DNA of 64,000 nucleotides, from the NCBI RefSeq assembly GCF_041260155.1, contig NC_091938.1, forward strand, positions 14,375,719 through 14,439,718, in the 5' to 3' direction. Shown here piece by piece: positions 27,771-54,220 of this stretch. The position numbers and the translations under genes were made by a program. The stretch is from Ptychodera flava (Eukaryota > Hemichordata > Enteropneusta > Ptychoderidae). Position 1 is the first letter of the stretch. The number at the start of each line of letters is the position of its first letter. Under the pieces are notes generated by a model that was not told the DNA's origin, did no database searches, and saw only the letters and a program-made list of their open reading frames with translations.

Positions 27771-28010
27771 CTTTGGCCAAAATCCGGTGTCGGGGTCTGT
27801 ACTGCTTATCTAATGGCGATGTGGCACGTGAGTACGGGGCCGGGCTTGTCTTTCGACAGGGCAGGACAGGTTGTGCTATAGCTCTGCGTGGCAGTGCTAT
27901 GTGTTACCGGCGTTACACGGCGTTATGTGCTAGCGAATACGAGGCGCGGTCAAACTCCGATGCTTACATTTCTGACAAGCGTGACCAGCAGTTTAAACAA
28001 TTTTCATAAA
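27771..28010 (-). promoter_or_regulatory. 5' flank / probable 5' UTR and promoter of the ALDH gene
   Basis: GC- and CpG-richer than its surroundings, directly upstream of the ALDH start codon. It contains a copy of the dispersed hairpin repeat also found at 30922-31014 and near 58.1 kb (here 27879-27920). No convincing TATA box is visible. The promoter role is inferred from position. Confidence 0.4.
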
Positions 28011-32223: not shown

Positions 32224-32240
32224 TGTGCTACATGGAGTAT
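32224..32240. repeat. Left copy of 17-bp direct repeat flanking the giant element
   Basis: TGTGCTACATGGAGTAT directly precedes the left arm and recurs at 54204-54220 just outside the right arm. Candidate target-site duplication; 20-bp windows match with one mismatch. Confidence 0.85.
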
Positions 32241-35200
32241 GTGAAGTTGGTTCCTAGTTCCTAGTTCCTTATTCGACCCGATCTGAATAAGGAACTGCAA
32301 CGTGAAGTTGGTTCCTAGTTCCTAGTTCCTTATTCGGCCCATTCTGAATAAGGAACTGCAATGTGAAGTTGGTTCCTAGTTCCTAGTTCCTTATTCGATG
32401 GTTCCCAGTTCCTTATTCGGCCCATTCTGAATAAGGAACTGCAATGTGAAGTTGGTTCCTAGTTCCTAGTTCCTTATTCGATGGTTCCCAGTTCCTTATT
32501 CGGCCCATTCTGAGTAAGGAACTGCAATGTGAAGTTGGTTCCTAGTTCCTAGTTCCTTATTCGATGGTTCCCAGTTCCTTATTCGGCCCATTCTGAATAA
32601 GGAAATGCAATGTGAAGTTGGTTCCTAGTTCCTAGTTCCTTATTCGATGGTTCCCAGTTCCTTATTCGGCCCATTCTGAATAAGGAACTGCAATGTGAAG
32701 TTGGTTCCTAGTTCCTTATTCGATGGTTCCCAGTTCCTTATTCGGCCCATTCTGAATAAGGAAATGCAATGTGAAGTAGGTTCCTAGTTCCTAGTTCCTT
32801 ATTCAAAATTACATTTTTGACCAATTCTAATCGTATTAACGCCATTTGCACTAGTTCCTGATTCATTTCTTAGTTTCTAATTCAGTTCCGATTCAAATAA
32901 CATTTTTGTTCCAGTTTACCCCTTTTCAACCAAATTTACTGCAAATAGAAACCTAGTTCATAGTTCCTTATCGATGGTTCCCAGTTCCTTATTCGGACCA
33001 TTCTGAATAAGGAACTGCAATGTAAAGTTGGTTCCTAGTTCCTAGTTCCTTATTCAAAATTACATTTTTGACCAATTCTAATCGTATTTGCACTAGTTCA
33101 TGATTCATTTCTTAGTTTCTAATTCAGTTCCCGATTCAAAATAACATTTTTGTTCAGTTTACCCTTTTCAACCAAATTTTACTGCAAATAGAAACCTAGT
33201 TCCTAGTTCCTGATTCGATGGTTCCCAGTTCCTTATTCGGCCCATTCTGAAGAAGGAACTGCAATGTGAAGTGGTTCCTAGTTCCTAGTTCCTTATTCAA
33301 AATTACATATTTGATCAATTCTAATCGTATTAATGCCATTTGCACTAGTTCCTGATTCATTTCTTAGTTTCTATTTCAGTTTCCGATTCAAAATAACATT
33401 TTTGTCCCAGTTTACCCCTTTTCAACCAAATTTACTGCAAATAGAAACCTAGTTCCTAGTTCCTTATTCGATGGTTCCCAGTTCCTTATTCGGCCCATTC
33501 TGAATAAGGAACTGCAATGTGAAGTTGGTTCCTAGTTCCTAGTTCCTTATTCAAAATTACATATTTGATCAATTCTAATCGTATTAATGCCATTTGCACT
33601 AGTTCCTGATTCATTTCTTAGTTTCTATTTCAGTTTCCGATTCAAAATAACATTTTTGTCCCAGTTTACCCCTTTTCAACCAAATTTTACTGCAAATAGA
33701 AACCTAGTTCCTAGTTCCTTATTCGATGGTTCCCAGTTCCTTATTCGGCCCATTCTGAATAAGGAACTGAAATGTGAAGTTGGTTCCTAGTTCCTAGTTC
33801 CTTATTCAAAATTACATTTTTGACCAATTCTAATCGTATTTGCACTAGTTCCTGATTCATTTCTTAGTTTCTAATTCAGTTCCCGATTCAAAATAACATT
33901 TTTGTCCCAGTTTACCCCTTTTCAACCAAATTTTACTGCAAATAGAAACCTAGTTCCTAGTTCCTTATTCGATGGTTCCCAGTTCCTTATTCGGCCCATT
34001 CTGAATAAGGAACTGCAATGTGAAGTTGGTTCCTAGTTCCTAGTTCTTATTCAAAATTACATATTTGATCAATTCTAATCGTATTAACGCCATTTGCACT
34101 AGTTCCTGATTCATTTCTTAGTTTCTATTTCAGTTCCCGCTTCAAATAACATTTTTGTCCCAGTTTACCCCTTTTCAACCAAATTTTACGCAAATAGAAA
34201 CCTAGTTCCTAGTTCCTTATTCGATGGTTCCCAGTTCCTTATTCGGACCATTCTGAATAAGGAACTGCAATGTGAAGTTGGTTCCTAGTTCCTAGTTCCT
34301 TATTCAAAATTACATTTTTGACCAATTCTAATCGTATTTGCACTAGTTCCTGATTCCTTTCTTAGTTTCTAATTCAGTTCCCGATTCAAAATAACATTTT
34401 TGTCCCAGTTTACCCCTTTTCAACCAAATTTACTGCAAATAGAAACCTAGTTCCTAGTTCCTTATTCGATGGTTCCCAGTTCCTTATTCGGACCATTCTG
34501 AATAAGGAACTGCAATGTGAAGTTGGTTCCTAGTTCCTAGTTCCTTATTCAAAATTACATATTTGACCAATTCTAATCGTATTAACGCCATTTGCATTAG
34601 TTCCTAATTCATTTCTTAGTTTCTATTTCAGTTCCCGATTCAAAATAACATGTTTGTCCCAGTTTACCCCTTTTCAACCAAATTTTACTGCAAATAGAAA
34701 CCTAGTTCCTAGTTCCTTATTCGATGGTTCCCAGTTCCTTATTCGGCCCAGTCTGAATAAGGCAATGCAATGTGAAGTTGGTTCCTAGTTCCTAGTTCCT
34801 TATTCAAAATTACATATTTGACCAATTCTAATCGTATTAACGCCATTTACACTAGTTCCTGATTCATTTCTTAGTTTCTATTTCAGTTCCGATTGAAAAT
34901 AACATTTTTGTCCCAGTTTACCCCTTTTCAACCAAATTTACTGCAAATAGAAACCTAGTTCCTAGTTCCTTATTCGATGGTTCCCAGTTCCTTATTCGGC
35001 CCAATCTGAATAAGGAACTGCAATGTGAAGTTGGTTCCTAGTGCCTTATTCAAAATAACACATTGGACCAATTCTACATGTAATTGTATTTAGGCCATTT
35101 TCATTTCAGTTCCTATTCATTTCTTAGTTTCTAAATCAGTTCATGATTCAAAATAATACATTTGTCCCATTTTACCCGTTTGCAACCAAATTTCACTGCA

Positions 35201-35775
35201 ATGAGAAGCCTAGTTCCTAGTTCCTTATTCGATGGTTCCTAGTTCTTATTCTACTCAATCTGAGTATGGAACAGCAACGTGAAGTTGGTTCCTAGTTCCT
35301 TATTCAAAATAACACATTTCACCTAATTTTATTTAGGTCATTTTCACTTCAGTTTCGGATTCATTTTTAGTTTCTGTATCAGTTCCCGATAATACTTGTG
35401 TCTCATTTACCTGTTTTCAACCAAATTTCACTGCAGTTCCTGATTCAACTGATAATTAGAAGCCTAGTTCCTAGTTTCTGATTCAACTCAATCTAAATAA
35501 GAAGCTTCGACATCGAGATGGTTCATAGTTCCTAGTTCCTTATTCAAAATAGCACAATTGACCAATCCTGAGTGTATTTAGGCCATTTCATCTGCAGTTC
35601 CTGATTAATATTTAGTTTCTTATTCAGGTCCCGATTTAAAATAATGCTTTTGCCCAATTGTGTGATTTTCAACCAAATTTCACTGCAGTTCCCGAGTCAA
35701 CTGATGAAAAAGTAGTCTATTTCCTAGTTCCTGATTCGGTTCCTGATTCAAAATAACTCATTTGACCAATCTAAA
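32241..35775 (+). repeat. Left arm: tandem array of ~83-bp and ~250-bp units
   Basis: The outer part (32241-32780) repeats an ~83-bp unit built from 'ggttcctagttcctagttcc', 'ttattcgatggttcccagtt' and 'ggcccattctgaataaggaa'. The inner part repeats an ~250-bp unit adding 'ttgaccaattctaatcgtat' and 'cccagtttaccccttttcaa', about nine copies to 35000, then decaying inward. It generates spurious open frames such as the one at 33587-33790. Confidence 0.9.
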
Positions 35776-36089
35776 TGTGTTTCAGGCATGTTAGAATTTA
35801 CTGCACTTTAGAATTTTAAAGGTAGATCTCGCCACGTTTTCATACGATTTTGTCTATTGTGGTAAACATAGCAGTGACGCTCTTGCTGCTGTGGTTATAC
35901 AGAAAACAAATATATTTACACATAATGGGACCTCTTTGGAACATTTTTCTCATGCATGTAGTGGCGTATTTTCAGAAAAAAGCGAAGAAGTAATCACTTT
36001 CTCACTTTGAACCACTCGGCATTTACGGAAATAGCCGAGCACGCCTCGTTGTGATTGTCGTTGCCATGGTGTCATGGATACAATTTACA

Positions 36090-36558
36090 TATCCGAAAAG
36101 TATAGAAAATGTATTTGTTTTCCAAAATGTCTCTGTGTGTGTTTGTTTTGGTCAAAAATACGCGAAAGTATAGAGGGAATGGGCCGTTTGTGATCTGTAA
36201 ACAGCAATCAACAGTAGAGTGTCTTAAGAAAAAAGTGTTTCAGAATTTTTCAATTCCGTTTGAATTTTTTACAATAGGATGTGAAAGTGACAACTCCGGT
36301 GACTTATTGAAAAACTCCAGGTTTGTCACTTTCACACCCTACTGTGCACAAAAACTAAAACAAATTTAAAAATTCTGAGACACTTTTTTCCGAAGATACT
36401 CTACTGTTCATTGCTGTTTACAGATCACCAAGCAGACCACTCCCTCTATACTTATAATTTTTAAAGTAAAAACATAAAAAATGTGTATTTTTGACCAAAA
36501 CAAGAAAAAATCCACATATTTTGGAAAATAAATACATTTTCTATAATTTTCAGATATA
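36090..36558. repeat. Imperfect snapback palindrome (about 470 bp)
   Basis: The left half runs 'tatagaaaatgtatttg', 'ggtcaaaaatacgcg', 'gatctgtaaacagcaat', 'gtttcagaattttt'. The right half is the complement in reverse order ('aaaaattctgagac', 'attgctgtttacagatc', 'tatttttgacc', 'atacattttctat'). The centre near 36323 has the stem 'gtgaaagtgaca'/'tgtcactttcac'. Diverged MITE-like element. Confidence 0.7.
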
Positions 36559-38121
36559 GAGTTTAAAGAAAACATATACTTTATTGGGTCAAAAACATCA
36601 TCTTCAATGAGAAATACTGAGAAATACAGGATTCAAGAATGGTGCATGTCATCCTTTAGAAAAGATTAATTTACTTTGTAACATACTCTATCTAAGAATG
36701 ACACCCAATAAAATTGAATTTTAAACATACCCTTAATTTTAACAGGCTAGACACTAAGTGTATCGGACGGACGAGTCCATCAAAAAACAGCTTAAAACGA
36801 TCGGCAATACATCTGCCTGTTACCTGTTAAATGATCAACAACACAACTGTGTGTCCTTGAAAATAGTAGTATCATTAATATGTAAAAATAAAATGAAAAA
36901 ATACATTAAAAAAGGGTTGGTTTTAAACAAATGTTATGTTCTAGCACAATGTCATTTGTTTATTTTTTCTAAATGTAGAAAATGCATTGGTTTTGCCCAG
37001 ACAATTACTGGATTGTGAGAAAAAAATTATCATAGTCACATTGCGCGTTGCCAGCCAGCAGTATGCTACATGCGTTACCATTACAACATCGGTAAACTAA
37101 CTTGACGGTCCTGTGAACTCTGTCGATCAAAATCACATCTCTTGGATGCTTTTCTCTCACAATTTCAGTAAAGTTGAAATACGGTATACACAAACTAAAT
37201 TACTGTTTAAATCAAGTATACCTTTTGATCGACCTTTCTTTGGGAAAAAATATTCCAGGAGATGATTGATACTATCTGTTCAAACAATTAGTTTACCCCC
37301 CCCCCCCCCCCCCCGCAATTGTGCCTGGACAGTGGCTGAGGTTGAGACTTGTTTTACAGTTTATTCAACAATCCTTGATGTTTACACTTGTTTGTGTTAT
37401 AGAAAGATTACGTTATTTAAAAGTTAAAGTTATATATTAAAGTTACCTAAACTAAATGTAATGGCTGTATGATTCCTTTGTATATGTAAACCCTTGATTT
37501 CCAAATGTCTTTATTGACATGATAATACTTGACGATGACAGTTAAACATCTTCTGAAGTTCTGCCATTTGACTTGTCAGTGCAATCTGCCTATGTCGCAA
37601 TCACACGAGAGAACAACAATATTTATTAATCCGTGGCATTTTCAGGCCAATCGAATTTGAATGTCAAAATCGAAGAAGGAATTCTGAAATATCGTCATAT
37701 TTCTTTCCGTGAATGTCGTTTTTAGAGTTGGCATTTCCAACATCGGATTTTACATGTAACGCCGTGCATTACGCGGCCAGCTTATATTTGATGATGATAT
37801 TAGAGAGCGAAACGCGTATTAGCTCGAAATCCGGCACATATGCAATGTTCGCACGAAACAAGTGAGAAGATGTAAAGACCATCGTTTGGCAATATGCTAG
37901 GAATAAATTGAATATCGAAATTTGGTGTAGAACAGGAAGTTAATTCATTTGTCAATGTTTCATTTGTAAAGGCGGAGCCTCCTTTTAAAAGGGCGCGAAG
38001 CCGTGGTTGCGTTCACTGTGTAAGTGGACACCAAATAGGCAACACGCGGGCACACGCTCCAGAAAATGCCACTTTTAGATTTTTTCCGGCCGCCAACAGG
38101 GCAGAAAACTACCAAGCAGTT
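36559..38121. other. Core of the giant element: no gene seen
   Basis: AT-rich sequence with a 19-base poly-C tract (37296-37314) and several chance ORFs without recognisable homology. Confidence 0.45.
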
Positions 38122-38510
38122 AGCTGCAATAATTGTAGCCCTTGGTTGGTGGGGATTGGGCTTCTGTCGTGCGGCTCGCGCCTTGCCCCAACCAGGGCTA
38201 CAATTTCTCCCAATACCTGCTCGTGTAAAAGCTGCAGTGCGGATCTACACTGCATGGTCCAGGCACACACGGGGCCGCATTATCAGAGAATCTCCCCTTA
38301 CCGTGTGCAAATTTCACCATAATCCTGCTCCCAGATAATGTTAGAGCCCTTGTAACTCCTATCGATGGTCAACTTTACTCCTTGCGGCTGAAAAATGACA
38401 GTTTAATGACTCAGGCGCGAAGTCAATTCGAACCTGACCGCCGTCGTTGAACTCTGTACCCAGCCGACTTGTACCATCACATTTTAGGGGTGGCCGACAG
38501 GTGTGAGGGA
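38122..38510. repeat. Left arm of inner inverted repeat
   Basis: Begins 'agctgcaataattgtagccc' and ends 'gacaggtgtgaggga'. It is a near-exact complement of 41154-42269, except that it lacks an internal segment of about 750 bp present there. Confidence 0.85.
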
Positions 38511-39044
38511 CTAATGAAAACGGTGGCACTAGCAGTAGCGCGCTAGTGGCAGTAGTTGTTATTTTAACGTTATCTTTTCGAAGGATTGTAAAAAGGTCAT
38601 AGGACCGTTTGCTCCTTTTCAATTACTGCAAGAATACAACTATCGCTGAAAGCAAAGAGAGACCAGTGACCATTGAAGAACTTGCCATCTTTATTTCTGA
38701 AGAAGTGAAAGAGATATTCACGCCATGCAAAGTCTGTCGTCTGGTCTTTGTCATTTTATACAGATGCTCTGACAACAAGAGGACACCGCAATATAATTAT
38801 AAGATATCCAATCGATATTTACGGCTACTATACTATACGATATAGATCTCTAAGGCTATAAAATCTTCGATATATATCGGATATTTACCCGCCTAATTAA
38901 CAAACTCTAGTATCATCTAGTAGCGAAGTTCGAACCAGACTAGCGCTTGGCCAGAGCTGTAAAGTGGTGAAATGTCTGACATATATTCGCGACTCTTTTT
39001 AATCTTGAAGCTTATAGTTGTACAATTTCCGACTGTTTCAAATG

Positions 39045-39500
39045 TGCTGAAATAGTTCCGATTCATAAGGGAGGCTCTAAGAGTGATGTCAACAACTATA
39101 GGCCTATCTCCCTCCTACCAGTTCTTCTACCTAAAATACTAGAAAAACATGTTTATATTAGTTTTTACAGTTTTATGCATTTAATCTTTTTGTCACAACT
39201 CACAATCATCAGACAACGTTAACATCACTCTTGTCACATTGCTTTAGTCAAGTTAACTGACCAGGGTCTATACTTTTACAGAATATGGATGAAGATTTAC
39301 GTGAAGATTTTTTCATCGTTGATCATAACATTTTGCTGAGCGAACTTCTGTGTACAGGTTTTCTGACTTGTCACTGAAGTGGTTTCGATCATACCTTACA
39401 GGAAGAAGTCAATGTTAGTTTTAGGTGTACACGCTCATGTTTTGTCGATTGGTGTGGTGTATCTCAGGAGTCCATTTTGGTCCACTTCTGTTTTTGATCA
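39045..39500 (+). pseudogene. Decayed non-LTR retrotransposon reverse transcriptase
   Basis: Reads KGGSKSDVNNYRPISLLP from 39067. Later, in shifted frames, come IVDHNILLSELL (near 39318), DLSLKWFRSYLTGRSQ (near 39366) and a GVSQxS-(shift)-GPLLFLI trace (near 39455-39500). These are successive RT blocks of CR1/L2/Jockey-like LINEs, with deletions, stops and frameshifts. No endonuclease domain is seen. It sits in the loop of the inner inverted repeat. Confidence 0.8.
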
Positions 39501-39593
39501 TGTTATGTATGTCATTTTACCCCACACTCATCATGACATGACTGTAATTAGTCTGGAACATTCTCAACTTTGTGTAAAAATGGGAAGCTTAGA

Positions 39594-39657
39594 TACTACT
39601 ACTACTGTGATACTACTACTACTACTACTACTACTACTCTACTACTACTACTACTAC

Positions 39658-39688
<31 letters not shown>

Positions 39689-39690
39689 GG
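39594..39690. repeat. (TAC)n/(CTA)n then (AAT)n microsatellite
   Basis: Trinucleotide runs that may represent the tail region of the LINE relic just upstream. Confidence 0.9.
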
Positions 39691-39975
39691 GACAAGTCTT
39701 CGTTGCGGTTGCTTCAAATCTTATTAGATTTATTCAAAAATGTTGAGCTCAATATCAAAGCAGGTATGTAAAACATGCTGATTACAAGGAATTGTTACAA
39801 AGAGAAAGGTGTATCCATGAAAAAGCACAGACGTGAAAATGATGTAAAGAAATCCTCATACAACCCGGCTACTACGTCATAAAGATGTATGTTGACAGAC
39901 AAGAAAATGCCGAAATTTTAAACTGATAAACACTGCATTATTGAAGTAGTCATGAACAAACGGATGGAGGAATTC

Positions 39976-40126
39976 CATCTGATTAAAATCAAAGGTAGAG
40001 TACGGCGACGTCTTCTTATGCGTACGCGGTACTCTCTCGCTGTCGCCTCTCACAACGCGACAGCGAGAGAATACCGCGTACGCATAAGAAGACGTCGCTG
40101 TACTCTACATCTGATTTTAATCAGAT
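39976..40126. repeat. Near-perfect ~150-bp hairpin
   Basis: Arms contain 'catctgattaaaatca', 'gcgacgtcttcttatgcgta' and 'ctctcgctgtcgc', and their complements; the loop 'ctctcacaac' is near 40050. One strand could fold into an almost continuous stem of about 70 bp. Confidence 0.85.
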
Positions 40127-40389
40127 TGGAGGAAGTCGTTCCTATATTGACCCTATTTCCATACTGAATTCATCATGCACACTGTAAAGTTCACTATGGT
40201 TCGAAGCGAGACTACATAAATGTCCTGTGAGAAAATTAACCTGGAATGTAATCCGCGTTTGTGTAATGAGTTTATTAAGATAAAAAATGTTACGACCGTA
40301 CAAAAACAGTAAAATACCTACGTGTAGTATACAAATAGCAATTTAGTATTTGGCAAAGTATAAGTATAGTTAAAGTATAAATAAATATC

Positions 40390-40530
40390 GGCAATTTCAC
40401 AGACCCGGCGTGCCGTGGCACAAGGCTAGTCATTGTAGTATCATCTAGAGTCCGGAAATCGCCGATAAATATTCGGTAAGTATAGGCGATTTCACAGACG
40501 CAGCGTGCTGAGGCACAAGGCAAGTCATTC
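40390..40530. repeat. Direct duplication of a ~45-bp sequence
   Basis: 'gcaatttcacagacccggcg .. gtcatt' (40390-40434) recurs as 'gcgatttcacagacgcagcg .. gtcatt' (40486-40530); a third partial copy starts near 40547. Confidence 0.7.
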
Positions 40531-41153
40531 TCGTCCAGTGTCGATCGGCGATTTCACAGTAATCCCGAAATCGTCGATATGTCAAACTTTGATACTAGAT
40601 GGTAAATATCCGATTAAAAAAATTGTGCAAAGTCACGCCGTCATGGACAAGAATGCCGTTTTGGCACCCCACTTCACACATTGTGACCTTTTTAGTCGAA
40701 CAGATTTTGCTTGGAACACTCTTTCCACATTGAACAACAGCGGCATCTTGTTCATGTAGTTGTACCATGAAGGTGGATGGTTGAACTTAGTTGTGAAAGT
40801 TGAACTAGTTATGGAGTTTAACTTAGGCACGCTCTGAACAATGTGCATGGGCACTAAGCTCTCACTGCTTTAAATGACCCGTTCCCGTGTAGGATTTATT
40901 GAACTAGTACGTAACTTTAATATTTGAGAAAGTTGGGAAGATACAGCAGAGGATTTATTGAACTAATTAAAATGCGTAGTTGAACTTTGGCAAAAGTATC
41001 TCTCTTTATTCACTAAGAGTTACATATTGTCATGAAAATTACCCATCCTTTCACTCCCATAAGCTAGTCCTACGAGTATGGCAAGAGTGTCCGGCTTTGG
41101 CTCCGGAGGCAGTGTAGGGCTCGTAGGGCTACCCGTAAGCATGCTCATTCAGC

Positions 41154-42269
41154 TCCCTCACACCTGTCGGCCACCCCTAAAATGTAATGGTACAAGTCGG
41201 CTGGGTACAGAGTTCAACGACGGCGGTCAGGTTCGAATTGACTTCGCGCCTGAGTCATTAAACTGTCATTTTTCAGCCGCAAGGAGTAAAGTTGACCATC
41301 GATAGGAGTTACAAGGGCTCTAACATTATCTGGGAGCAGGATTATGGTGAAATTTGCACACGGTAAGGGGAGATTCTCTGATAATGCGGCCCCGTGTGTG
41401 CCTGGACCATGCAGTGTAGATCCGCACTGCAGCTTTTACACGATATAAATCACTTTTTATTTCATAATCAATAAAAAGAAGATACACAATAAAACCCAGG
41501 TCCTCAGCCGAATATGAGAAAGGCAAAATGTTCCTCGAACTGGCAAGAGGCAGGGCAAACAAAACAATACAATAACAATGAAGAACATGACGTAAACATC
41601 TTGCCAAAAAAAACAAGCAATAAAAAATTTGACAAGAAAAAACTGCAATAAAACATTTGACAAGGAAAAACCTGCGCAAAACATAAGCAAATCTGTGTAA
41701 TACAGATGAACATATAGATTGGTTGGTAAATGTACATATACAATGCTATTTAGTAGTTGCACTTTTGGAAGAAGACAATATTGAAGCCTCACACCATGAT
41801 GGTTCATCTTTGGCATGAAATAGGCAATAGCTTGAGATAAGGCATAGTTTACTGATATCACGTATCACTGTTTTATGCTGTTTACTTAATTTCAGTGCCT
41901 TAAGAAGTTGTAGAAGTCTGAGTTTATTGTCTGTCGTTATTTGTCCTCTCGACCCGACTTCAAAACAAATGAGTTCAGTCGAATAACCTTGAGCTTGTAA
42001 AGAGTTAACAAGATGGGAATATTTCATGCATTTGTCATTATGACGTCTCTCGATATTAAATTCAAATGGTACTGTCAGTTCAAAAATGATCATTCTTTTT
42101 ACATTACTGAAAAGAATAACCAGATCAGGACGGTCAGGTGTACGTAAAACATTGTGGGGATGGTACCTTTTGTATGACCTGGTAAATCCTTGCCCCTGGT
42201 TGGGGCAAGGCGCGAGCCGCACGACAGAAGCCCAATCCCCACCAACCAAGGGCTACAATTATTGCAGCT
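41154..42269. repeat. Right arm of inner inverted repeat, with a ~750-bp extra segment
   Basis: 'tccctcacacctgtcggcca' at 41154 to 'attgcagct' at 42269 mirrors 38122-38510. The extra segment spans about 41443-42194 and holds the PD-(D/E)XK-like ORF. In the left arm it is replaced by about 13 bases, so the left arm looks like the deleted version. Confidence 0.8.
41746..42180 (-). pseudogene. PD-(D/E)XK-like C-terminal fragment of a mobile-element protein
   Basis: The open frame includes RPDLVILFSNVKRMIIFELT, VPFEFNIERRHNDKCMKYSH and CFEVGSRGQIT. It then ends in a Cys- and Trp-containing tail (YCLFHAKDEPSW). The P-D ... E-L-T pattern followed by E-V-G-x-R-G is that of a restriction-endonuclease-like domain seen in many invertebrate repeat-encoded proteins, often with reverse transcriptases. 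The upstream part of the frame (to 42249) runs into the inverted-repeat sequence and is probably not original. Only the C-terminal piece is present, so it is a fragment. The assignment is by eye. Confidence 0.55.
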
Positions 42270-44100
42270 ACCAAGCAGTCAGCGCGAAGCTGCTGCCGAT
42301 CAAACTCTGTGGTTACATTCAAATTCTAACGCAACTGGAAGACGATATTTTTAGGAAATTCGAGCGTTGGTGTTGGGAATCAATGACCGCTGGCGATTTG
42401 AACCGACCGTCAATCAAGCGCTAACCTCGTATAAACTCTGTTTGCAGGATAAGCAAAAGAAGCCAAAAGGTTGAGATCAATTTGCGTAATTAATGGTATA
42501 GAAATCAAACATCATACTGGCCAAGTGTTTGACTGGGAGGAGAACTCCACTAATGCGAGAACCTGGAATTGAAAATTGCGGCTTTAATGTTGACTTTGAC
42601 CTAGCGTCACAAGTCGGACGACTATGCCAAACAAAATAAGTTTTACAGTAAATGAAAGTTTCAGTCAGGCATTTAATTACAAACGAGTTACTCTGCTTTG
42701 TTTCCGAAACAGACGGCACATGGTCACCATACTCCCCCCCCCCCCCCCCATCCCAATAGAGCTGCTTATTGAGTTGCGTTTGCCAGAGTGGACAAAGTTT
42801 CAGGGTAACTACTTTTCGGCTAGATGCGTTCCTTGTTCAGAATAAAATAATTGATGGGGGTTGATAAAGACGTAATTAATTTGCAGTTCTCTACAGCTCG
42901 ATGTCTTTTCTTACTTTCTTTTTTCACTTTTTCCGGGATCAAGAAGTGCCTTTATGTAACTATCATCGACTGACAGCTGTTCTAGATCCATAGCTGTCCT
43001 TGTGCCAGACTTTCAGATCAGCCTCAGGCTGAGTTAACAGCGGCTCAGCATAGATACTAACTTTGCGGTTTTATCAGAAAGTATCACAAGGGCAGGAAGG
43101 AGCGCACTTTTTACATGTAGATACTAGCTATTGAGGAAACCGTCGACAGTATAGGCGCGGATGGATGTTTTGTCTAAAATGTATCAGTCTCAGTGAGACG
43201 GGATTATCACTAAAAATGTAACATTGTCGGGTCCGAACCAATATCGAAAATCGCATATCCGAAATAAGGAGCAGTGTATCAAATTGCAATATTCGATTTT
43301 GTTTCACGCATAAGACAGAACACGTCGCACAAGAGCAACTACTTCATGCGCAATATTGCTAGTCAACACTCGTAAATATCAATTTAAAGTCGATTCCACA
43401 CAAATGTTTTTTCTCTTTCCAAACTTGAAAAATGCCTGGCCGCAAAATGTATCCCGCGCCTCGCGCAATTTAAATTTGCGAATTCGTTCACAAAATCGCA
43501 GCGGTTTATGTAAAATTAGCTTGTAAACGTCATTTCCTTATGTCTGAAATCTGTGACAAAATGCAATTTAGACATAATTTATCATGTCGTTCTCTGATTT
43601 CAACATCGAAATATGGTTGGCCTAATAATGCCACGGATTTTTATTGGTCAACACACAGAAGATGATATGCATGTATCTACAGAGTGTGTTCACTTACCTA
43701 GAATCAGTGAACAATTCAAAAGGCTGAATGTAACTGAAAAGTAATTTCAAGAGGCTTTTGGAAAGACAAGAAGGGTGTACAGAAATGAAAACGTTACATC
43801 CCAAAAGGTTCTTGCTGATACTGTGATAGATTTTTTCTTCCACATTAGCTTGCCATTTTTTCCATAGTCATCTCAGGCAGATTCTCCCCTCTTATATCTG
43901 CTGGAATTTTTTTTAGAAAATCTTCCAGACCCCCCAAGGATATCAAATGGTTCACCCCTAACTGTGTGTTACTCAAAGAGAAATAAATATTTTATTTTAG
44001 AACACTTAACGTCATACTTGACGTACTTGATTTTATTCCTATTGACATTACTTGTGATCGACTTCTATCGGGACTTCCACAAATCATAGACTCTATTGTT
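42270..44100. other. Core of the giant element: no gene seen
   Basis: Contains a 16-base poly-C run (42734-42749) and CpG-containing unique-looking sequence. No ORF with recognisable similarity. Confidence 0.4.
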
Positions 44101-44129
44101 TTGAGTCTATGCCCAATAATGCATAGAAA

Positions 44130-44318
44130 GCATGCGCATGCGTTTACATCCGCCCTCAACGGCCCGGTAAGCTCTTACTCTAATTTTTATTGGTCGTAGC
44201 CCGAAAAAACAGACGATTTCACCAATCAGAGATGCTGACATAGAAACCGGTAACGTTAAAAAGCTCTGTGACGTCATCAGCTCTTTAGTATTGAGATATT
44301 GACGATGGAACGGTGAGT
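44130..44318 (+). promoter_or_regulatory. Promoter-like block with a possible first exon
   Basis: In order: an NRF1-like TGCGCATGCG (44133-44142), an inverted CCAAT box (ATTGG, 44189-44193), a CCAAT box (44222-44226) and a full CRE palindrome TGACGTCA (44269-44276). Then ATG GAA CG at 44305-44312 is followed at once by GTGAGT, a good donor. The cluster looks like a TATA-less promoter driving a short first coding exon. No matching downstream exon was found on this strand, so the call is tentative. Confidence 0.4.
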
Positions 44319-45182
44319 TTGACAAGTTTCTTCGATTCTGTAGATACTTCTATAAAAATATTCATTTGTCAAACCCCTTATTTCAAACAATAGAAATTTA
44401 CAGAACTTTTTAATGGTGTTCGATGTGTGCACCAAATCGTCTTATTCACTGATTGACATTAATTACAGAATGGAGCCATTTTAGCTGTACACATGGTGGC
44501 CTACGGCGTCATGCAGAAGTTAATGCATGCAATCTCTAGATCAATTTCGTCCAGTGTTTTCTTTACCCGCTTGCCAAATCGCATTTGCGAGAAAACAGTC
44601 ACGTTTTGAGAGAAAATTTTGTCACAAATTAGCCCAACTGGCGAATCCAAATTCGGGCTCAAGTGAAACGACCGTTACTGTCCGTATATAGTCATGTGCT
44701 TTCAATCATGTAATTGTTGAATTATTAGTGAATGAGAAAAGAATGGTCTTGTGCGGTATTTAAACATAAATTACATAAATGTAGCAAGTCGTGGGCAACT
44801 TGTGCGATTCGCTACATACACGATTTCTGCCATGCGAACACATCAGTCTCTCAAGATAAAACGGAACTCAGTCAGTGTTGGAAAGCAAGGAGAAATTTCT
44901 ACCAAGAGTACTCAAAAACTCCAGGTCCTTCGTGAAAATTGCCGGTCCTTCACTCAGTCGGTCTACAAGTTTATGCAAGTTTAAATCTCAGTTCAAAACT
45001 AGTGTTTTGACGATAGTACTGAACAGTTGGGCTGTCTTTTGATTTTATGAACAGAATAGACAGCTATTAACTGTTTGTTAACTTATATTATAATTATAAG
45101 ACCAAAACATCCATCATCATTTTCAGTTCACATTTGGTATACCAATGTGAGCTTATTGCATGTCAGCGTTCGTCATCTGTAT

Positions 45183-46680
45183 TGTATGTATGTATGTATG
45201 TATGTATGTATGTATGTATGTATGTATGTATGTATGTATGAACGTCCATCCACTGCATAAACTTGAGAACCGCTGTGCAGTTCAGCTTGATATTTGGTGT
45301 GTAGATGTATCCAGGGCTGTAAATGGGATTTTATTCAAATGAAGTTGACATTCCAAAAATTATGCAAATGAGCTTAGAAAATGTGGTAATGTTCAAAAAT
45401 TAATAACTCAAGAACTGCTGTTCGGATTGCTTTGAAATTAGTACACAAGTACCTTAGGTAAATCTCATACAGTATTATGGATTTTGTGAAGATATCTTGA
45501 ATTTCCCATTTTTACTAATTTTTTTGGTGATTTTCTTCATTTTTGGTTAAAAATCTATTTTTCTCTCTGAAACAGATGGCCCAATTACTTTGATTTTGGG
45601 GTGGATGTATGCAGGGTTGTTATCTTAGTATTTTTCACCAATTATAACAAAATTAGCAATATTACATTTTTAGTCCTTTGGACCATGGTCCAAAGGATTA
45701 ATGTGTGATCACTCTGTGTGTGCGGTATGCTGTATGCTGTATGCCGTGTGCCGTAGACACCCACCATTTGAAAACGCTTCAGTAACTTTTCCTGAAATTT
45801 GGCAGGATGATCACTTTTGCAAATCCCTCTAGCATGCTAATTGGATTTTTTGATTGAATCGTTGAAAGTGTCATTTTGGGTCAGTTTACTAAAATTCACT
45901 GTTCTCATTTGCATATTACTCAATGCACTGTGCACTGTTAACTTGACAACTGCTGAACCAAATGTGATGCTACTTGGTATGTAACATCGCCAGGGAAAGA
46001 TCTAGATCTGATAAGATAATGGTGGGCGTAGCTTGCATAATTAAGGGCAATTTGCATAATTAGTTTTATGGGCAATACATCAAGAATGCTTCAGTAACTT
46101 TTTCTGAAATTTGGTAAGATGATGACTGGTGCAAATCTCTAAAGCATGCTTTTGGAATTTTTGATTGAATCGTTGAAAGTGTCATTTTTGGGCATTTTAC
46201 TGAAATTCACTGTTCACATTCGCATATTGCACAATGCAATGTGCACTTATAACTTGACAACTGCTGAACCAAATGTGATGCTACTTGGTATGTAACATTG
46301 CCAGGGAAAGATCTAGATCTGATAAGATAATGGTGGGCATGGCTTGCATAATTAAGGGCAATTTGCATAATTCTTTTTGTTGGCAATACGTCAAGAATGT
46401 TTCATTAACTTTTTCTGAAATTTAGTAAGATGATGACTGGTGCAAATATCTCCAGCGTACTATTGAGAATTTTTGATTGAATTGTTGAACGTGTCATTTT
46501 TGGTCATTTTTCTAAAATTCACTCTTCACATTTGCAAATTGCACAATGCAATGTGCAATGTTAACTTGACAACCACTGAACCAAATGTGATGCTATTTGG
46601 TATATAAAATCTCCGGGGAAAGATCTAGATCTGATAAGATAATGGTGGGTGTGGCTTGCATAATTAAGGGTACTCATTAT
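45183..46680. repeat. (TATG)n, repeat core and three ~310-bp diverged tandem units
   Basis: The tetranucleotide run 45183-45240 is followed by sequence related to 1977-2100. Next comes a terminal-style palindrome TCCTTTGGACCATGGTCCAAAGGA (24 bases, 45672-45695), quoted here only as arms 'tcctttggacca' and its complement. Then about three units of roughly 310 bp follow ('cagtaactttttctgaaatt .. gatctagatctgataagata'). Pearl/HINE-like layout. Confidence 0.55.
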
Positions 46681-47774
46681 TAATGTGCATATCTAATGCA
46701 ATGGGATTAGAGGTTTGGTTTCTGATGTTTATTGATCATTGTAGGACTGAAATTGTATTGTAAATTTCAGGACCTCCTTGACCTATGTTGACCTAATCAA
46801 ATATGCACATATCTAATTCTAGGCTTACCAAAAGTGCTAGAGTTGCAGTTTTTTGAACATTGATCACTGTGGAACTAAAATTTGCTGTCAAATTTCTAGA
46901 CCCCTTTGACCTATGGTAACCTCTTTAAATATGCACATACCTAATTCCAGGCCAACCAATTGAGGTAGAAGTCTGTTTTTGCTGGACGTGGACATGTATC
47001 GGATCAAAATATTTCAAGAAAATTTTGAGTGACCTTGGGGCGACCGCTGACCTACTTTGGCCTCCATTTGACTTACTTTCACTCATGTCACCTCCCTTAA
47101 CATGTATTCACATGGTTATTGGTGGTACAGGGTACTTATATGGAGCCTGACAATTTAAGAGTACTGTTCAATGTGACTACCTCATCAATTATGTGCATAA
47201 CTAATTCTAGGCTTCCTATAATTCTTTGAGAAGTGGTTTTTGGTGGATTGGGATAACTATGGAACTAAATGTTTTGCCAAAGTTTCTGATGACATATATT
47301 TTTAGAACTAATAGAGGTAAAGGGCTGAGATTCGGTGGCATAGTGCACCATATGGTGATTGTTCTCTAAATCCTGCCTATGGCTTAGTGCTTGGGCCCCT
47401 GAAAGCTGCTTGGAGCTATAATTTTACCACATATTTCTGTAAAAAATTTACACAGTGACCCCATATTCCATACAATGTAAAGTCAAAGAAGTCCTCTGTT
47501 TTTACTCTATACAAATAACAAGAATTCATTTCTTTGCTACAGCATTGTCTTCCGAAGTCGTGCCCATTAGCCACAGTGTCCACTTCAGTCTTCCTTTGAT
47601 TGTAATTACCTTTGACCTACTCTTGACATGTGCTATTATTTTATGCATATCTAATTGTAGGCTAATCAATAATGCTAGAAGTTCGTTTTTGATTCTTGTG
47701 GTCACTACAAGACTTAAATTTGTTGGTAAAATCCAACACTCACTTGATCGGGACCTACCCTTGACACCCCCATT
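46681..47774. repeat. Diverged dispersed repeat continuing toward the exonuclease relic
   Basis: Repeated phrases 'atgcacatatctaattctaggc' (in pieces) and 'cctttgacctatg' recur every 150-250 bases, suggesting very diverged tandem units. No gene seen. It abuts the point where the exonuclease frame ends. Confidence 0.45.
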
Positions 47775-50700
47775 TCATCCTACATAGTCATTTACAAGAC
47801 TTTCTTGGGAATATGAAGACCTGTCAGGATAAAGTGATCTGAACAGAGGTAAAGAATCTACAAATCCACACACACTTGTGAGAAACTTATCTGTCAAGGA
47901 ACATTTGTTCATGGCTTGCAATAAATACCTACAATCAAAAGATCGAGCATTGTGTGCAATTAAAATTGGATTATCAAATCTACAGATAAATGTAATAAAA
48001 TTATTCAAGCATGTCTCCTCGGGAACTGTAGTCACTGGGTTTCCTTCATAGTACAATTTACCATTTTTCACGGTAAGGCGAGTTTTTTCACTGGCAATGC
48101 GACAAATTGGCTGTGTTGGCAAATATACTGGCTGAACTGGGAATCTCCTGACACAGCTGCAATTTGAGTGATTTCTGCAGTTGAGTCTGAAATTCAATAA
48201 AAATAAAACATGAAAAGTTTAGTCTTCTGAATAGTAATATAGAGTCAATCCAGGCTGTGTAAAAACATTGATTTTGGTTACAGTCGGGAAGTTACTGAAG
48301 TTGAATAATGTGTTCTATCTACTATGTTCACTTTTTGTATGAACAATACTTTCATATGGAATATCAACAAGCATCATGACTTTTACACCAAATTGATTCA
48401 AACTACATACATCTCTATGAAACCCAAGCATACTTTGTTTTTGTCAACCTGTGTTTGCCATTAAGACTAAAGTAATTTTTTGTTTTGTGTCCGCATGCAT
48501 AGGTTTTCAGAGATTTACTGAGAAAAAAGAATGCAATTTTGTAGCAAAAAAAATGTTTTTGGTGATGTTCTGTCCCCAAACAATGTCTGACTTTTAAATT
48601 AATGCAATTTTCTTCTTCAGTTAGTCATATTAGTATTATTGAATCATGTTGCAACATAAACAGTGTAACCTCTACAAGACTACTTAAGTTTACCCCACTG
48701 ATGTGTGCTCTTGTTAAAAGAAACTGCCAAAAAGGGCAAATTTGTTGTGTGTTAATTTTTGGGTGTTTTTTGGACCACTTACCTGTGTTCCTTTAACAAT
48801 TTTTGGTGGACACAAAACTAAGAATTTAATTACTCTGACCTAATTCATTAAGGATAACTAGTAAAATGCAGAAAAGACACTGCCAACCACAACTAATGCA
48901 CTCTTTCAAAATCATAGATAATTTCCAAATACCGTGTATGTTCACTGATAAATACAATGAAGTGTTGATGTGTGCTAACTAGTTTTGATTTAATATAGGA
49001 TATTTTTAGAGTCAAACATGAACTGCAGAACAATAAAATGCAAATAAAAGCTTTCAAGAAAAATGCCAATAGAAACTCCAAAACTGATCTTACACACTGT
49101 ACTTACATGCTGATGTAGTTTCTATATCAAATATCACAGGTGTGTATGATCCTGAAGGTAGAGACACAAGTTCAGGTGCTACAACAGGCTCTGGAATCTC
49201 AACCCTGGATTTTTCTGATGACATGGACAGCCCAATATCCTTTTCATACGTACTCCCTTCTCGAACCTCAGTGGCTGCTATCTTCTGGGCTCTTTTCTCT
49301 TTTTGCTGAAGTACAAGAAATAAAATTTGACAAAAAAACTGTATGATCTAGTGAGTGGTTTTCATATAAGAAATATTTACAAATAACCATGTTATTTATG
49401 GCTGTCTGTCTGCTTGTCTGTCTTTGTCTCACTCTGTATGTATGTACACTGTTTGTGGCATTCATTTTAATTTATTTTTAAATTCTCTCACGTCAACATA
49501 CCTGTAGCCGCTTCAACTTCCCTTCCTTGGTCTTAACTCTGTCATTCACTTCCTGGACTTTCTTATCCAATTTGGCACCATACATTTGGCATGTTCTACT
49601 TGGTGAGAGTAAATTTTCTTCGTGAACCTGCAATCAAGCAATAACAATAAGCGTATTTGCCTGTTGGGAGTTGAGCAAAGTAACTGACTGGTTCACATGG
49701 AAGTTATTTAAAAGTTTCATTTCCCCTTGCAGAGTACAATATATTGTAATTACAATGTATGCAGGTTCTCAGTCTGTCTTATTATATTCCTCATTATGAT
49801 TGCCAAACTGTGATTTTTTGGGATGAACAGCATCTGGGAATGTAATGGGTCAATTTAATGTTATACTGACTGGTTGCCATGCTGAGCTAGGTAGAGAAAA
49901 TTATAACGATCTATTGCCAAGGTTACTGGTCTAACAAAATAAGCATTTAAAGATATAGTCACCTAGGGTATTCAAAATGGATATGTGAGGACTCTGTTTT
50001 TAAAAAACAGCCACTAACTTGAAATCTGTGATTGGCTAGTTCTTCGCTTTCCATTGTAACTGTCACTAAATTCAAATAGGTGACCGTATACTTTTAACAT
50101 TATATGGTATTCACTAGTAATGTTAAACTGACCTAGCTTCTCACTCTATCACTGAGTCATTCTTTTACCAACCTTACTAATGTATGTATGTCCTATATTC
50201 TTCTGGGCAACTGCTGCAGCCACACGCATATTAAAGCTGTTAGAACTGCTGTAGTGTTTGGCTTTCGGTGCTTTTGAAGCTATCACCATATTCAAACTTT
50301 CGTTTCCTTGTGATGAACCTATTCTCGCAAGGTCACTCGAATTGGCGATATACAAATTCAAGATACTATCTAAGTCCTTCCTTAGATCTTCACCACACAA
50401 ATCTTTACCGTATGGGAGGCTTTTGTGCTTATACTGAGCTGGATCTTTCATATATTGGCACCACTTTGTATCACAATTAGTGTGATCACCAAATGCATGG
50501 GGGACATTGCCCTAAGGTTTCTTTCTAGATCACTCACATTGCTGTTGTTTTGACTTAGGGCATAACTGAAGCATTTCTGGAGATGGTTTATTACTTTTGT
50601 TGACAACTGACAGTATGATTTCTCTGCTTTCAGTTTATAAAGTTTGTCTGCAAAGCCTTTTTTTACATGATTGTTGTCTTTGTGTTTTACAAATGGTGGG
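47775..50700 (-). pseudogene. Mutator-like transposase C-terminal part fused to a DEDDh (PML exon-9-like) exonuclease
   Basis: Four exon-like blocks with matching phases: 50700-50173, 49627-49502, 49305-49107 and 48186-47775, all GT-AG. Block 1 reads FVKHKDNNHVKKGF, KCFSYALSQNNSNV, HTNCDTKWCQYMKDPAQYKH, KSLPYGKDL and RVAAAVAQKNIGHTYISK, the C-terminal region of Mutator-like transposases of invertebrates. Blocks 2-3 are a basic coiled-coil-like linker (KLKRLQ-QKEKRAQ) ending in FDIETT, exonuclease motif I. Block 4 has AEITQIAAVSG, then ILIAHNARSFDC (motif II). It stops before motif III (H-x4-D). Breaks: one base missing in the G run at 50499-50503, one near 48121, the upstream transposase core absent, and the C-terminus cut at 47775. 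A diverged family C MITE sits in the first intron. Dead copy. Confidence 0.72.
49947..50097. mobile_element. Family C MITE, diverged 151-bp copy in the transposase relic's intron
   Basis: TTAA at 49947-49950 and 50094-50097. The ends AGATATAGTCACCTA and TAGGTGACCGTATACT match the family C termini with substitutions, and the core 'tgattggctagttc' is shared. Confidence 0.65.
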
Positions 50701-50769
50701 CTAGCCTAAGAACTTGGTTAAATTCTGGATAATAATAACCATGCAAGTTAAAATAATTGTGCACCAGAA

Positions 50770-53700
50770 ACTATTCTTCTAATGATCAGTTGAATCAGGA
50801 ACTGCAGTGAAATTTGGTTGAAAATGGGTAAAATGTTCCAAAAGTATTATTTTGAATGGGAAACTGAATTAGAAACTAAGAAATGAATCAGGAACTGAAG
50901 TGAAAATGGCCTAAATACAATTTGAATTGGTCAAATATGTTACTTTGAATAAGGAACTGGGAACCAGGCTTCTAATTATCAGTTAAATCAGGAACTGCAA
51001 TGAACCTTGGTTAAAAACGGGTAAAATGGGCCAAAGGTATTATTGTGAATAAGGAACTGAATTAGAAACTAAGACATGAATCAAGAACTGAAGTAAAGGT
51101 GGCCTCGATACGATTAGAATGGTCAAATGTGTTATATTGAGTAAGGAACTAGGAACAATCTTCACATTGCAATTCCTTATTCTATTTTGAGAATAAGGAA
51201 CTTGGAACAAGGCTTCTAATTATCAATCGAATCAGGAACTGTAGTAAAAATTGGTTGAAAACGGGTACAATGACAAAAAATATTATTTAAATAGGGAACT
51301 GAATAAGAAACTGAAATGAATCCGGAACTGAAGTGAAAATGGCCTACATACAAGTAGAACTGTTCGCAGGTGTTATTTTGAATAAGGAACTGGGAATCGA
51401 ACTTAACATTGCAGTTTCTTTTCAGAATGGGTCAAATAAAAAAACTAGGAACTCGGCTTCTAATTATCAGTCAAATCAGGAACTGCGGTAAAATTTTGTT
51501 GAAAACGGGTAAAATGGGGAAAAAGTATTTTGAATGGGCAACTGAATTAGAAAATGGGAAATGAATCAGGAACTGAAGTGAAAATGGCCTCAATACAATT
51601 AGAATTGGTCATAGATGTTATTTTGAATAAGGAACTGGGAATCAAACTTAACGTAATGGTTGCAGTTTTTTTTCAGATTGAGTCAAATAAGGAACCAGGA
51701 AATAGGCTTCCAATTATCAGTCGAATTAGGAACTGCAGTTGACATTTGGTTGAAAACGGGTAAAATGGGCTAAGAGTTTTATGACTCGGGAATTAGAATT
51801 AGAAACTACGAAATAAATCAAAAACTGAAGTGAAAATGGCCTAGTTAAAATTCGAATTGGTCAAATGTGTTATTTTGAATAAGGAACTAGGAACTAGGAA
51901 CCTACTTTACGTTGCAGTTCCTTATTCAGCTTGGGTCGAATAAGGAACTAGGAACTAGGAACCAACTTCACATTGCAGTTCCTTATTCAGATTTCGCCGA
52001 ATAAGGAACTAGGAACTAGGGTTCTAATTATCAGTCGAATCAGGAACTGCACTGAAATTTGGTTGAAAACAGGTAAAATTGGGAAATAGTATTATTGTGA
52101 AACATAAACTGACTTAAATTACAACTATAAAATAAATCTGAAATGTAAATGGCCTAATAAAATACGAATTGGTCAAATATGTTATTTTGAATAAGGAACT
52201 AGGAACCTACTTCACGTTGCAGTTCCTTATTCAGCTTGGGTTGAATAAGGAACTAGGAACTAGGAACTAACTTCACATTGCAGTTCCTTATTCACATTGC
52301 AGTTCCTTATTCATATTTTGCTGAATAAGGAACTAGGAACTAGGGTTCTTATTATCAGTCGAATCAGGAACTGTACTGAAATTTGGTTGAAAACAGGTAA
52401 ATTGGGGAAAAGTATTATTGTGAATCATACATTGACTTAAATGACAACTAAAAAATAAATCTGGAACTGAAATGAAATTGATCTGATAAAATTCGAATTG
52501 GTCAAATGTGTTATTTTGAATAAGGAACTAGGAACCAACTTCACGTTGCAGTTCCTTATTCAGATTGGGCCGAATAAGGAACTGGGAACCATCGAATAAG
52601 GAACTAGGAACTAGGTTTCTATTTGCAGTAAAATTTGGTTGAAAAGGGGTAAACGGGGACAAAAATGTTATTTTGAATCGGGAACTGAATTAGAAACTAA
52701 GAAATGAATCAGGAACTAGTGCAAATGGCGTTAATACGATTAGAATTGGTCAAAAATGTAATTTTGAATAAGGAACTAGGAACTAGGAACCAACTTTACA
52801 TTGCAGTTCCTTATTCAGAATGGGCCGAATAAGGAACTGGGAACCATCGAATAAGGAACTAGGAACTAGGTTTCTATTTGCAGTAAAATTGGTTGAAAAG
52901 GGGTAAACGGGGACAAAAATGTTATTTTGAATCGGAAACTGAATTAGAAACTAAGAAATGAATCAGGAACTAGTGCAAATGGCGTTAATACGATTAGAAT
53001 TGGTCAAAAATGTAATTTTGAATAAGGAACTAGGAACTAGGAACCAACTTCACATTGCAGTTCCTTATTCAGAATGGGCCGAATAAGGAACTGGGAACCA
53101 TCGAATAAGGAACTAGCAACTAGGTTTCTATTTGCAGTAAAATTTGGTTGAAAAGGGGTAAACGGGGACAAAAATGTTATTTTGAATCGGGAACTGAATT
53201 AGAAACTAAGAAATGAATCAGGAACTAGTGCAAATGGCGTTAATACGATTAGAATTGGTCAAAAATGTAATTTTGAATAAGGAACTAGGAACTAGGAACC
53301 AACTTCACATTGCAGTTCCTTATTCAGAATGGGCCGAATAAGGAACTGGGCACCATCGAATAAGGAACTAGCAACTAGGTTTCTATTTGCAGTAAAATTT
53401 GGTTGAAAAGGGGTAAACGGGGACAAAATGTTATTTTGAATCGGGAACTGAAATAGAAACTAAGAATGAATCAGGAACTAGTGCAAATGGCGTTAATACG
53501 ATTAGAATTGGTCAAAAATGTAATTTTGAATAAGGAACTAGGAACTAGGAACCAACTTCACATTGCAGTTCCTTATTCAGAATGGGCCGAATAAGGAACT
53601 GGGAACCATCGAATAAGGAACTAGGAACTAGGTTTCTATTTGCAGTAAAATTTGGTTGAAAAGGGGTAAACGGGGACAAAAATGTTATTTTGAATCGGGA

Positions 53701-54203
53701 ACTGAATTAGAAACTAAGAAATGAATCAGGAACTAGTGCAAATGGCGTTAATACGATTAGAATTGGTCAAAAATGTAATTTTGAATAAGGAACTAGGAAC
53801 TAGGAACCAACTTCACATTGCAGTTCCTTATTCAGAATGGGCCGAATAAGGAACTGGGACCATCGAATAAGGAACTAGCAACTAGGTTTCTATTTGCAGT
53901 AAAATTTGGTTGAAAAGGGGTAAACGGGGACAAAAATGTTATTTTGAATCGGGAACTGAATTAGAAACTAAGAAATGAATCAGGAACTAGTGCAAATGGC
54001 GTTAATACGATTAGAATTGGTCAAAAATGTAATTTTGAATAAGGAACTAGGAACTAGGAACCAACTTCACATTGCAGTTCCTTATTCAGAATGGGCCGAA
54101 TAAGGAACTAGGAACTAGGAACCAACTTCACGTTGCAGTTCCTTATTCAGATCGGGTCGAATAAGGAACTAGGAACTAGGAACTAGGAACCAACTTCACA
54201 CAC
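50770..54203 (-). repeat. Right arm: the same tandem array, inverted
   Basis: Complement of the left-arm units ('gaataaggaactaggaacta', 'ccaacttcacattgcagttc', 'gggccgaataaggaactggg'). It is most regular from 52500 to the outer end and more diverged inward, mirroring the left arm. Confidence 0.9.
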
Positions 54204-54220
54204 TGTGCTACATGGAGTAT
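54204..54220. repeat. Right copy of 17-bp direct repeat
   Basis: TGTGCTACATGGAGTAT in the same orientation as at 32224-32240. Confidence 0.85.

Follow-up and report, generated by a model that had tools for sequence, protein, structure and literature searches.

The stretch of DNA analysed here, 64,000 nucleotides of the genome of the hemichordate Ptychodera flava (the window), carries a host gene coding for an aldehyde dehydrogenase and, outside this gene, a unit of 21,963 bp (32241-54203) lying between two copies of the 17-bp direct repeat TGTGCTACATGGAGTAT. From left to right, the unit comprises an arm of 3,547 bp, an interior of 14,975 bp and a second arm of 3,441 bp. In the interior there are remains of a transposase gene and a nested element, as summarised in Table 1. 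The distance from the match to residue 1 of the aldehyde dehydrogenase to the start of the left 17-mer is 4,453 bp.

Table 1. Features of the window, with positions counted from its first nucleotide (TSD, target-site duplication; TIR, terminal inverted repeat).
Feature	Positions	Strand	Remarks
Host aldehyde dehydrogenase gene, outside the element	5399..27770	-	13 matched coding segments, large introns
17-bp direct repeat TGTGCTACATGGAGTAT, left copy (candidate TSD)	32224..32240	+	exact match
Left arm	32241..35787	+	units of 58-83 bp outermost, followed by units of ~250 bp; divergence highest in the inner units
Nested element, 4,150 bp	38121..42270	.	77-bp exact TIRs; 9-bp TSD CCAAGCAGT at 38112-38120 and 42271-42279
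Palindromic MITE-like element, 150 bp, inside the nested element	39977..40126	.	TGGAGGAA on both sides
Exon with the exonuclease domain, P0002 residues 249-384	47778..48184	-	frameshift near 48122
Exon of the transposase gene, P0002 residues 180-247	49108..49311	-	extends to the first DxE of the exonuclease
Exon of the transposase gene, P0002 residues 139-181	49502..49630	-	splice-like AG/GT at the edges
Mutator-like transposase relic, C-terminal part of PF20700 and beyond	50170..50699	-	frameshift near 50505
Right arm	50763..54203	-	unit families of the left arm, opposite orientation
Additional bases ACAC separating the right arm from the direct repeat	54200..54203	.	right-end asymmetry
17-bp direct repeat TGTGCTACATGGAGTAT, right copy	54204..54220	+	exact match

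The host gene is best represented by the P. flava aldehyde dehydrogenase P0045, which is 94-100% identical to the window in 11 of its 13 segments and 82% and 70% identical in the other two. A second P. flava protein (P0046) gives a poorer fit, with 12 segments at 53-98% identity. When a single exon was used for a protein search, P0045 showed the highest identity (98%) among the best 120 of 3,629 matches, and within these best 120 five plant proteins scored above it at 68-75% identity. A host coding exon running across the target site was also considered and none is evident: after joining the flanks, the open stretches of at least 45 aa that cross the junction are of 46 and 49 aa. Other features were observed in the flanks. 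The G+C content of the 2-kb bin 26001-28000 is 47%, compared with 35-38% for adjacent bins, and a G+C-rich stretch at 25105-26949 comprises a 445-bp tandem duplication and 67-71-bp repeats. Besides, a 344-bp stretch at 62264-62607 matches its own reverse complement at 91% and is likely to be a palindromic element.

The arms of the unit are composed of tandem repeats arranged in opposite orientation, and the best single alignment between them reaches 81% over 3,400 columns. Their outer ~150 bp (152 bases of the left end compared with 160 of the right) are identical but for an additional 7-bp subunit in the right arm; the final A of this alignment is an alignment edge. Fuzzy matching placed 18 unit starts on the left and 16 on the right; the outer units measure 58-83 bp and most of the others 241-269 bp. 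For the comparison among units, 23 long ones were taken (11 left and 12 right), excluding those of up to 200 bp. Similarity is 90-100% in a group formed by nine units of the left arm (L8-L16) and six of the right (R3-R8), whether units of one arm or of both are compared; L17 shows 75-80% similarity to this group and the remaining seven long units 58-70%. In the right arm, the six outer ~254-bp units are 97-100% alike, and the six inner long units are 60-81% like these or each other. As judged from the sequences of the units, the arms have an apparent age gradient, with young units outside and old ones inside, and divergence rising inwards is what would be expected if arms amplify at their outer ends. 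The palindrome AGTTCCTTATTC...GAATAAGGAACT is present in 29 copies in the window when up to two mismatches per half are allowed (23 of the 29 have perfect 12-bp halves), and all of them lie in the arms, 16 in the left and 13 in the right, among the 34 units. These palindromes are probably multiplied copies of putative transposase-binding sites, which would have been amplified at the outer ends.

With regard to the flanking repeat, TGTGCTACATGGAGTAT occurs exactly twice on the plus strand of the window (at 32224 and 54204) and not at all on its minus strand. A chance repeat was rejected, because exact matches running through the aligned point did not exceed 14 bp in 2,000,000 random pairs of positions (drawn outside the arms, skipping pairs less than 500 bases apart); the probability of a 17-bp match at one fixed pair is ~2e-10. 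An earlier note on this DNA had described an element of ~22 kb, with inverted tandem-repeat arms of ~3.5 kb and a 17-bp flanking direct repeat, and this description has been borne out by the length of 21,963 bp and by the exact repeat. That it is one inserted unit, as was also claimed, is well supported by the inverted arms together with the exact direct repeat at the arm edges. Two details of that description require correction. The arm units, given as ~83/250 bp, do have those lengths, but the outer ends also hold units of 58-68 bp. The repeats were placed exactly outside the arms, which is right on the left side; on the right side the last matching arm base is 54199, and ACAC follows before the 17-mer.

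The gene remains found in the interior belong to a transposase of the Mutator group. The relic matches PF20700 at 1.7e-06 (profile positions 272-339 of 357; 27.7 bits against a gathering score of 26.5), and no other Pfam family was found at 0.01 in a six-frame scan of 35750-50746 in which stops were read as X. It starts 63 bp inside the right arm, on the minus strand, and reads inward; position and orientation are its only tie to the arms. It contains GSSQGNESLN, including the residue aligned to the conserved E, which is the third and the only residue of the DDE set retained in the window. The assignment to the Mutator group relies on the PF20700 match and on the D/D/E residues of the relatives described below. 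A 118-aa query is 84% identical to the P. flava protein P0002 over 97% of the query, and six tblastn blocks are collinear with P0002 and with the Glandiceps protein P0003. The gene pieces have splice-like AG and GT at their inner borders. No counterpart of P0003 residues 1-328 or of P0002 residues 385-477 was found in the window by tblastn. The gene lacks its N-terminal half and its last exon and carries frameshifts, and therefore this copy is broken. The six-frame scan is not very sensitive, since it missed the exonuclease exon, whose open reading frame gave DNA_pol_B_exo1 at 3.4e-05 when scanned alone. This exon codes for a predicted 3'-5' exonuclease of the TREX/Plex9 class, in the same gene and the same orientation as the transposase relic; the matches obtained by fold search cover residues of the exonuclease half only.

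The interior also contains later or smaller elements. The 9-bp TSD of the nested element was set by aligning its TIR in full; 290 bp are repeated in inverted orientation within it at 99.7% identity, and its one open reading frame (P0036) has no Pfam match at 0.01. The 150-bp MITE-like element (39965-40134 with its flanks) has four extra bases, TTCC, at its left end, an asymmetry of the same size as that of the outer element. There is also a tandem array of a 311-bp unit (2.9 copies, 45776-46670). When TSD and TIR pairs were searched (repeats of at least 8 bp and at least 16 matches in the inner 20 bases), the outer element, the nested element and the small MITE were found, and the other pairs were only arm-internal, palindromic or of 8-10 bp. 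Scans of the viral and the bacterial/archaeal sequence collections (viral_contigs and genome_contigs) confirmed no DNA relative of the element.

At the protein level, 34 relatives were collected (P0002-P0035), which are Mutator-like transposases of animals; 28 of them carry both the transposase and an exonuclease-type (Plex9/TREX class) domain, most with PML_C as well. The catalytic residues were inspected in 26 of the 34 and, counting the rows with a residue, the first D is conserved in 18/18, the second D in 24/25 and the E in 26/26. Proteins longer than the broken copy of the window exist among those found. The fusion of transposase and exonuclease is present in mollusc and cnidarian proteins, and P. 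flava P0002 has a truncated form of it. The 9 Pfam families matched by 26 relatives do not include the PHD finger, which argues against Rehavkus, nor the FLYWCH zinc finger and the MULE domain PF10551, which argues against Phantom/Tm1; nevertheless, the N-terminal half of the protein is missing from the window.

Taken as a whole, the 21,963-bp unit is a real insertion, large, Mutator-like and of Foldback type, which represents a variant of a kind already known. It has the long terminal inverted repeats of MULEs (arms of 3.4-3.5 kb) and the inverted tandem-repeat arms, able to fold back, of the Foldback structural class. Very probably it arose when a Mutator-like DNA transposon of the Foldback type (with composite TIRs) inserted once in the genome of Ptychodera flava, at a site ~4.5 kb upstream of the aldehyde dehydrogenase gene's first coding exon. 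The following mechanism can be proposed. The termini would be the arrays of 58-83-bp and ~250-bp units around the retained part of the transposase gene. Considering the loss of the N-terminal half and the last exon, and the frameshifts, this copy was presumably mobilised in trans by an intact relative, through cut and paste by a Mutator-type transposase from another copy. A staggered cut of the target followed by gap filling would produce the target duplication. This would be either the full 17 bp, in which case four stray bases were kept on the right, or 9-13 bp, with termini that are imperfect and slightly longer; later insertions would have enlarged the interior. In a more speculative way, the exonuclease may trim the 3' ends before or after strand transfer, the four extra bases being untrimmed donor flank; it can be reasoned that a 3'-5' exonuclease alone would not lengthen the TSD, because trimmed target ends would be refilled.

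Several points speak against this explanation: position and orientation alone tie the relic to the arms, and a second copy was not observed; the window retains a single residue of the DDE set; a 17-bp direct repeat lies outside the 8-11 bp of MULEs (PMC6446971, cited, as are the other published systems below, from parts of the paper); and the relic could be an older piece captured by the element. The last point leads to the proposal that the mobilising enzyme was a different transposase and that the Mutator relic is an older insertion or a captured fragment. The relic is certainly incomplete and decayed, other nested elements are present in the interior, and the limited sensitivity of the six-frame scan weakens its failure to find another family. 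However, this relic is the only transposase match in the scanned interior, it begins 63 bp inside the right arm and reads inward, and long TIRs are in keeping with the Mutator superfamily, so a different enzyme is considered unlikely. It could also be thought that two satellite arrays were inverted by accident or brought together by misassembly, as short reads would make satellite-like arms difficult to assemble. Unrelated arrays would not be expected to have the same 17 bp repeated exactly at their two outer edges, to share near-identical termini or to enclose a transposase relic, and hence this origin is hardly credible.

Within the preferred explanation, a Foldback-type Mutator-like insertion, the length of the TSD admits several readings, because, given the 4-bp asymmetry at the right end, the termini can also be drawn slightly longer and the TSD shorter, at 13, 11 or 9 bp. 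Moving both ends outward by 4 bases gives a flush 13-bp duplication (TGTGCTACATGGA) with 19/20 terminal bases matching; by 5 bases, a flush 11-bp duplication (GTGCTACATGG), also with 19/20; and by 6 bases, a flush 9-bp duplication (TGCTACATG) with 18/20. The 11- and 9-bp readings fall within the Mutator range and the 13-bp reading is outside it. One possibility is that the transposases of this lineage make an unusually wide staggered cut, which gave a true 17-bp TSD, ACAC being untrimmed donor flank or the result of slippage; the arms would then end at GTGAAGTTGG. The repeat is exact over all 17 bp, and the 13-, 11- and 9-bp readings need 4, 6 and 8 coincidental bases (probabilities of 0.005, 0.0004 and 0.00003, respectively), whereas under a 17-bp TSD the apparent extension of the termini would arise by chance with a probability of ~0.02 (4/5) or 0.06 (3/4). 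Against this wide cut stand the published lengths: 8-11 bp in MULEs (PMC6446971), 8-10 bp in 45 of 53 complete copies of Tm1, the Mutator/Foldback family of root-knot nematodes, with 9 bp the commonest (PMC3169594), and 8 or 9 bp in the reinsertion of Muta1 of Aedes aegypti (PMC5225508). Moreover, a single insertion was observed and the ends of the element are not flush. We give it slightly less than an even chance.

The other possibility is a TSD of 9-13 bp, of usual or near-usual Mutator length, in which the ends of the element (termini AGTRTGTGAAG) reach 4-6 bases into the left 17-mer and the remaining identity is explained by chance, by target preference or by something that happened there before. 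The symmetric extension gives the flush duplications and matching termini described above and absorbs ACAC without any special event, in agreement with the three papers just cited. On the other hand, the 4-8 coincidental bases have to be accepted, and the added AGTAT and AGTGT differ from the GCAAC or GCAAT that usually precedes GTGAAG in the inner units. We give this shorter duplication the same chance as the wide cut. Sequence alone thus favours 17 bp and the published MULE lengths favour the shorter readings; the balance is about even, by judgement and not by computation. The 17-bp repeat hints at a new mode of cutting but does not prove one. Should duplications of 17 bp be present in other copies as well, Mutator target cuts would span a wider range than is known at present.

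Foldback arms around Mutator-type transposases and satellite monomers within inverted termini are already known, as described in the consulted parts of the papers on Tm1 and on Rehavkus-1_TC of Tribolium. Tm1 resembles the P. flava element in its composite inverted termini of repeated motifs, a Mutator-group transposase in one class of copies, the predominance of non-autonomous copies, the different terminal motifs (A1, A2) at its two ends and the nested insertions, and differs in having a Phantom-like FLYWCH+MULE transposase and a transposase-encoding copy of 2.5 kb (PMC3169594). Rehavkus-1_TC, with a length of 9.5 kb, belongs to the Rehavkus group of DNA transposons, which has been placed with or next to MULEs, and its inverted termini contain satellite monomers of 164 bp, mostly in arrays of 5 and 8 (PMC10218199). 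Repeat arrays in the termini are thus shared with the P. flava element; Rehavkus-1_TC is smaller, and Rehavkus has a 9-bp TSD and a PHD finger (PMC6446971). The Muta families of Aedes aegypti are also Mutator-like, with TIRs of more than 100 bp in 12 of 14 families, subterminal tandem repeats in 10 of 12 and, in Muta1, a terminal palindromic motif, but their repeats are of 9-15 bp, their TSDs of 8-9 bp and the Muta1 transposase has 504 residues (PMC5225508).

Related to this, the earlier note had considered the size of the element unusual and its lineage possibly undescribed, given that 17 bp exceeds the 8-11 bp of Mutator. The size claim holds in that total length and arms exceed those of arthropod MULEs, which reach about 10 kb with TIRs of up to 1,193 bp according to parts of PMC13359780, although a share of the 22 kb is later insertion, namely the nested 4.15-kb element. 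The claim about the lineage is only partly supported, as the repeat can be read in shorter forms, a Mutator-like transposase relic lies inside and Foldback-type Mutator elements with satellite-like termini were known before. Foldback Mutator elements are of interest as a route from transposon ends to satellite arrays and the reverse, and the P. flava copy shows the gradient from old inner to young outer units clearly.

The transposase-exonuclease lineage is a more interesting lead than the 17-bp repeat. The fusion raises the question of the role of a 3'-5' exonuclease in DNA transposition, and points to transposons as a possible source of the nuclease-like module found in PML and Plex9 proteins, or else to a common ancestor. 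The Plex9.1 exonuclease of zebrafish and the C-terminal module of PML (PDB 9mrc, 9mrd) are host proteins for which no transposase domain is described in the parts consulted of PMC12934764, and the portions seen of the literature on these proteins make no mention of a transposon origin of PML-like exonucleases or PML. The word exonuclease does not appear in the main texts of PMC6446971, PMC3169594, PMC5225508 and PMC13359780, nor is a Mutator-exonuclease fusion mentioned in the excerpts of PMC3985635. Titles and abstract starts gave no report of such a fusion, which does not imply that it is unpublished, as the search covered neither Repbase nor most of the subscription literature. The literature search gave no paper on the TU elements of sea urchins, and the word Mutator is absent from the accessible parts of the P. 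flava genome paper (PMC11175523).

The boldest proposal, which we regard as doubtful, would be an undescribed and widespread animal Mutator lineage combining a DDE transposase, a TREX/Plex9-class 3'-5' exonuclease and PML_C. By analogy with the Cas2-DEDDh fusion, its exonuclease might trim the donor flank; such elements might build foldback arms and insert with a 17-bp stagger, the four stray bases on the right being the outcome of imperfect trimming, and the nuclease-like module of PML could have descended from transposases of this kind. The family profile also matches the Cas2-DEDDh fusion weakly.
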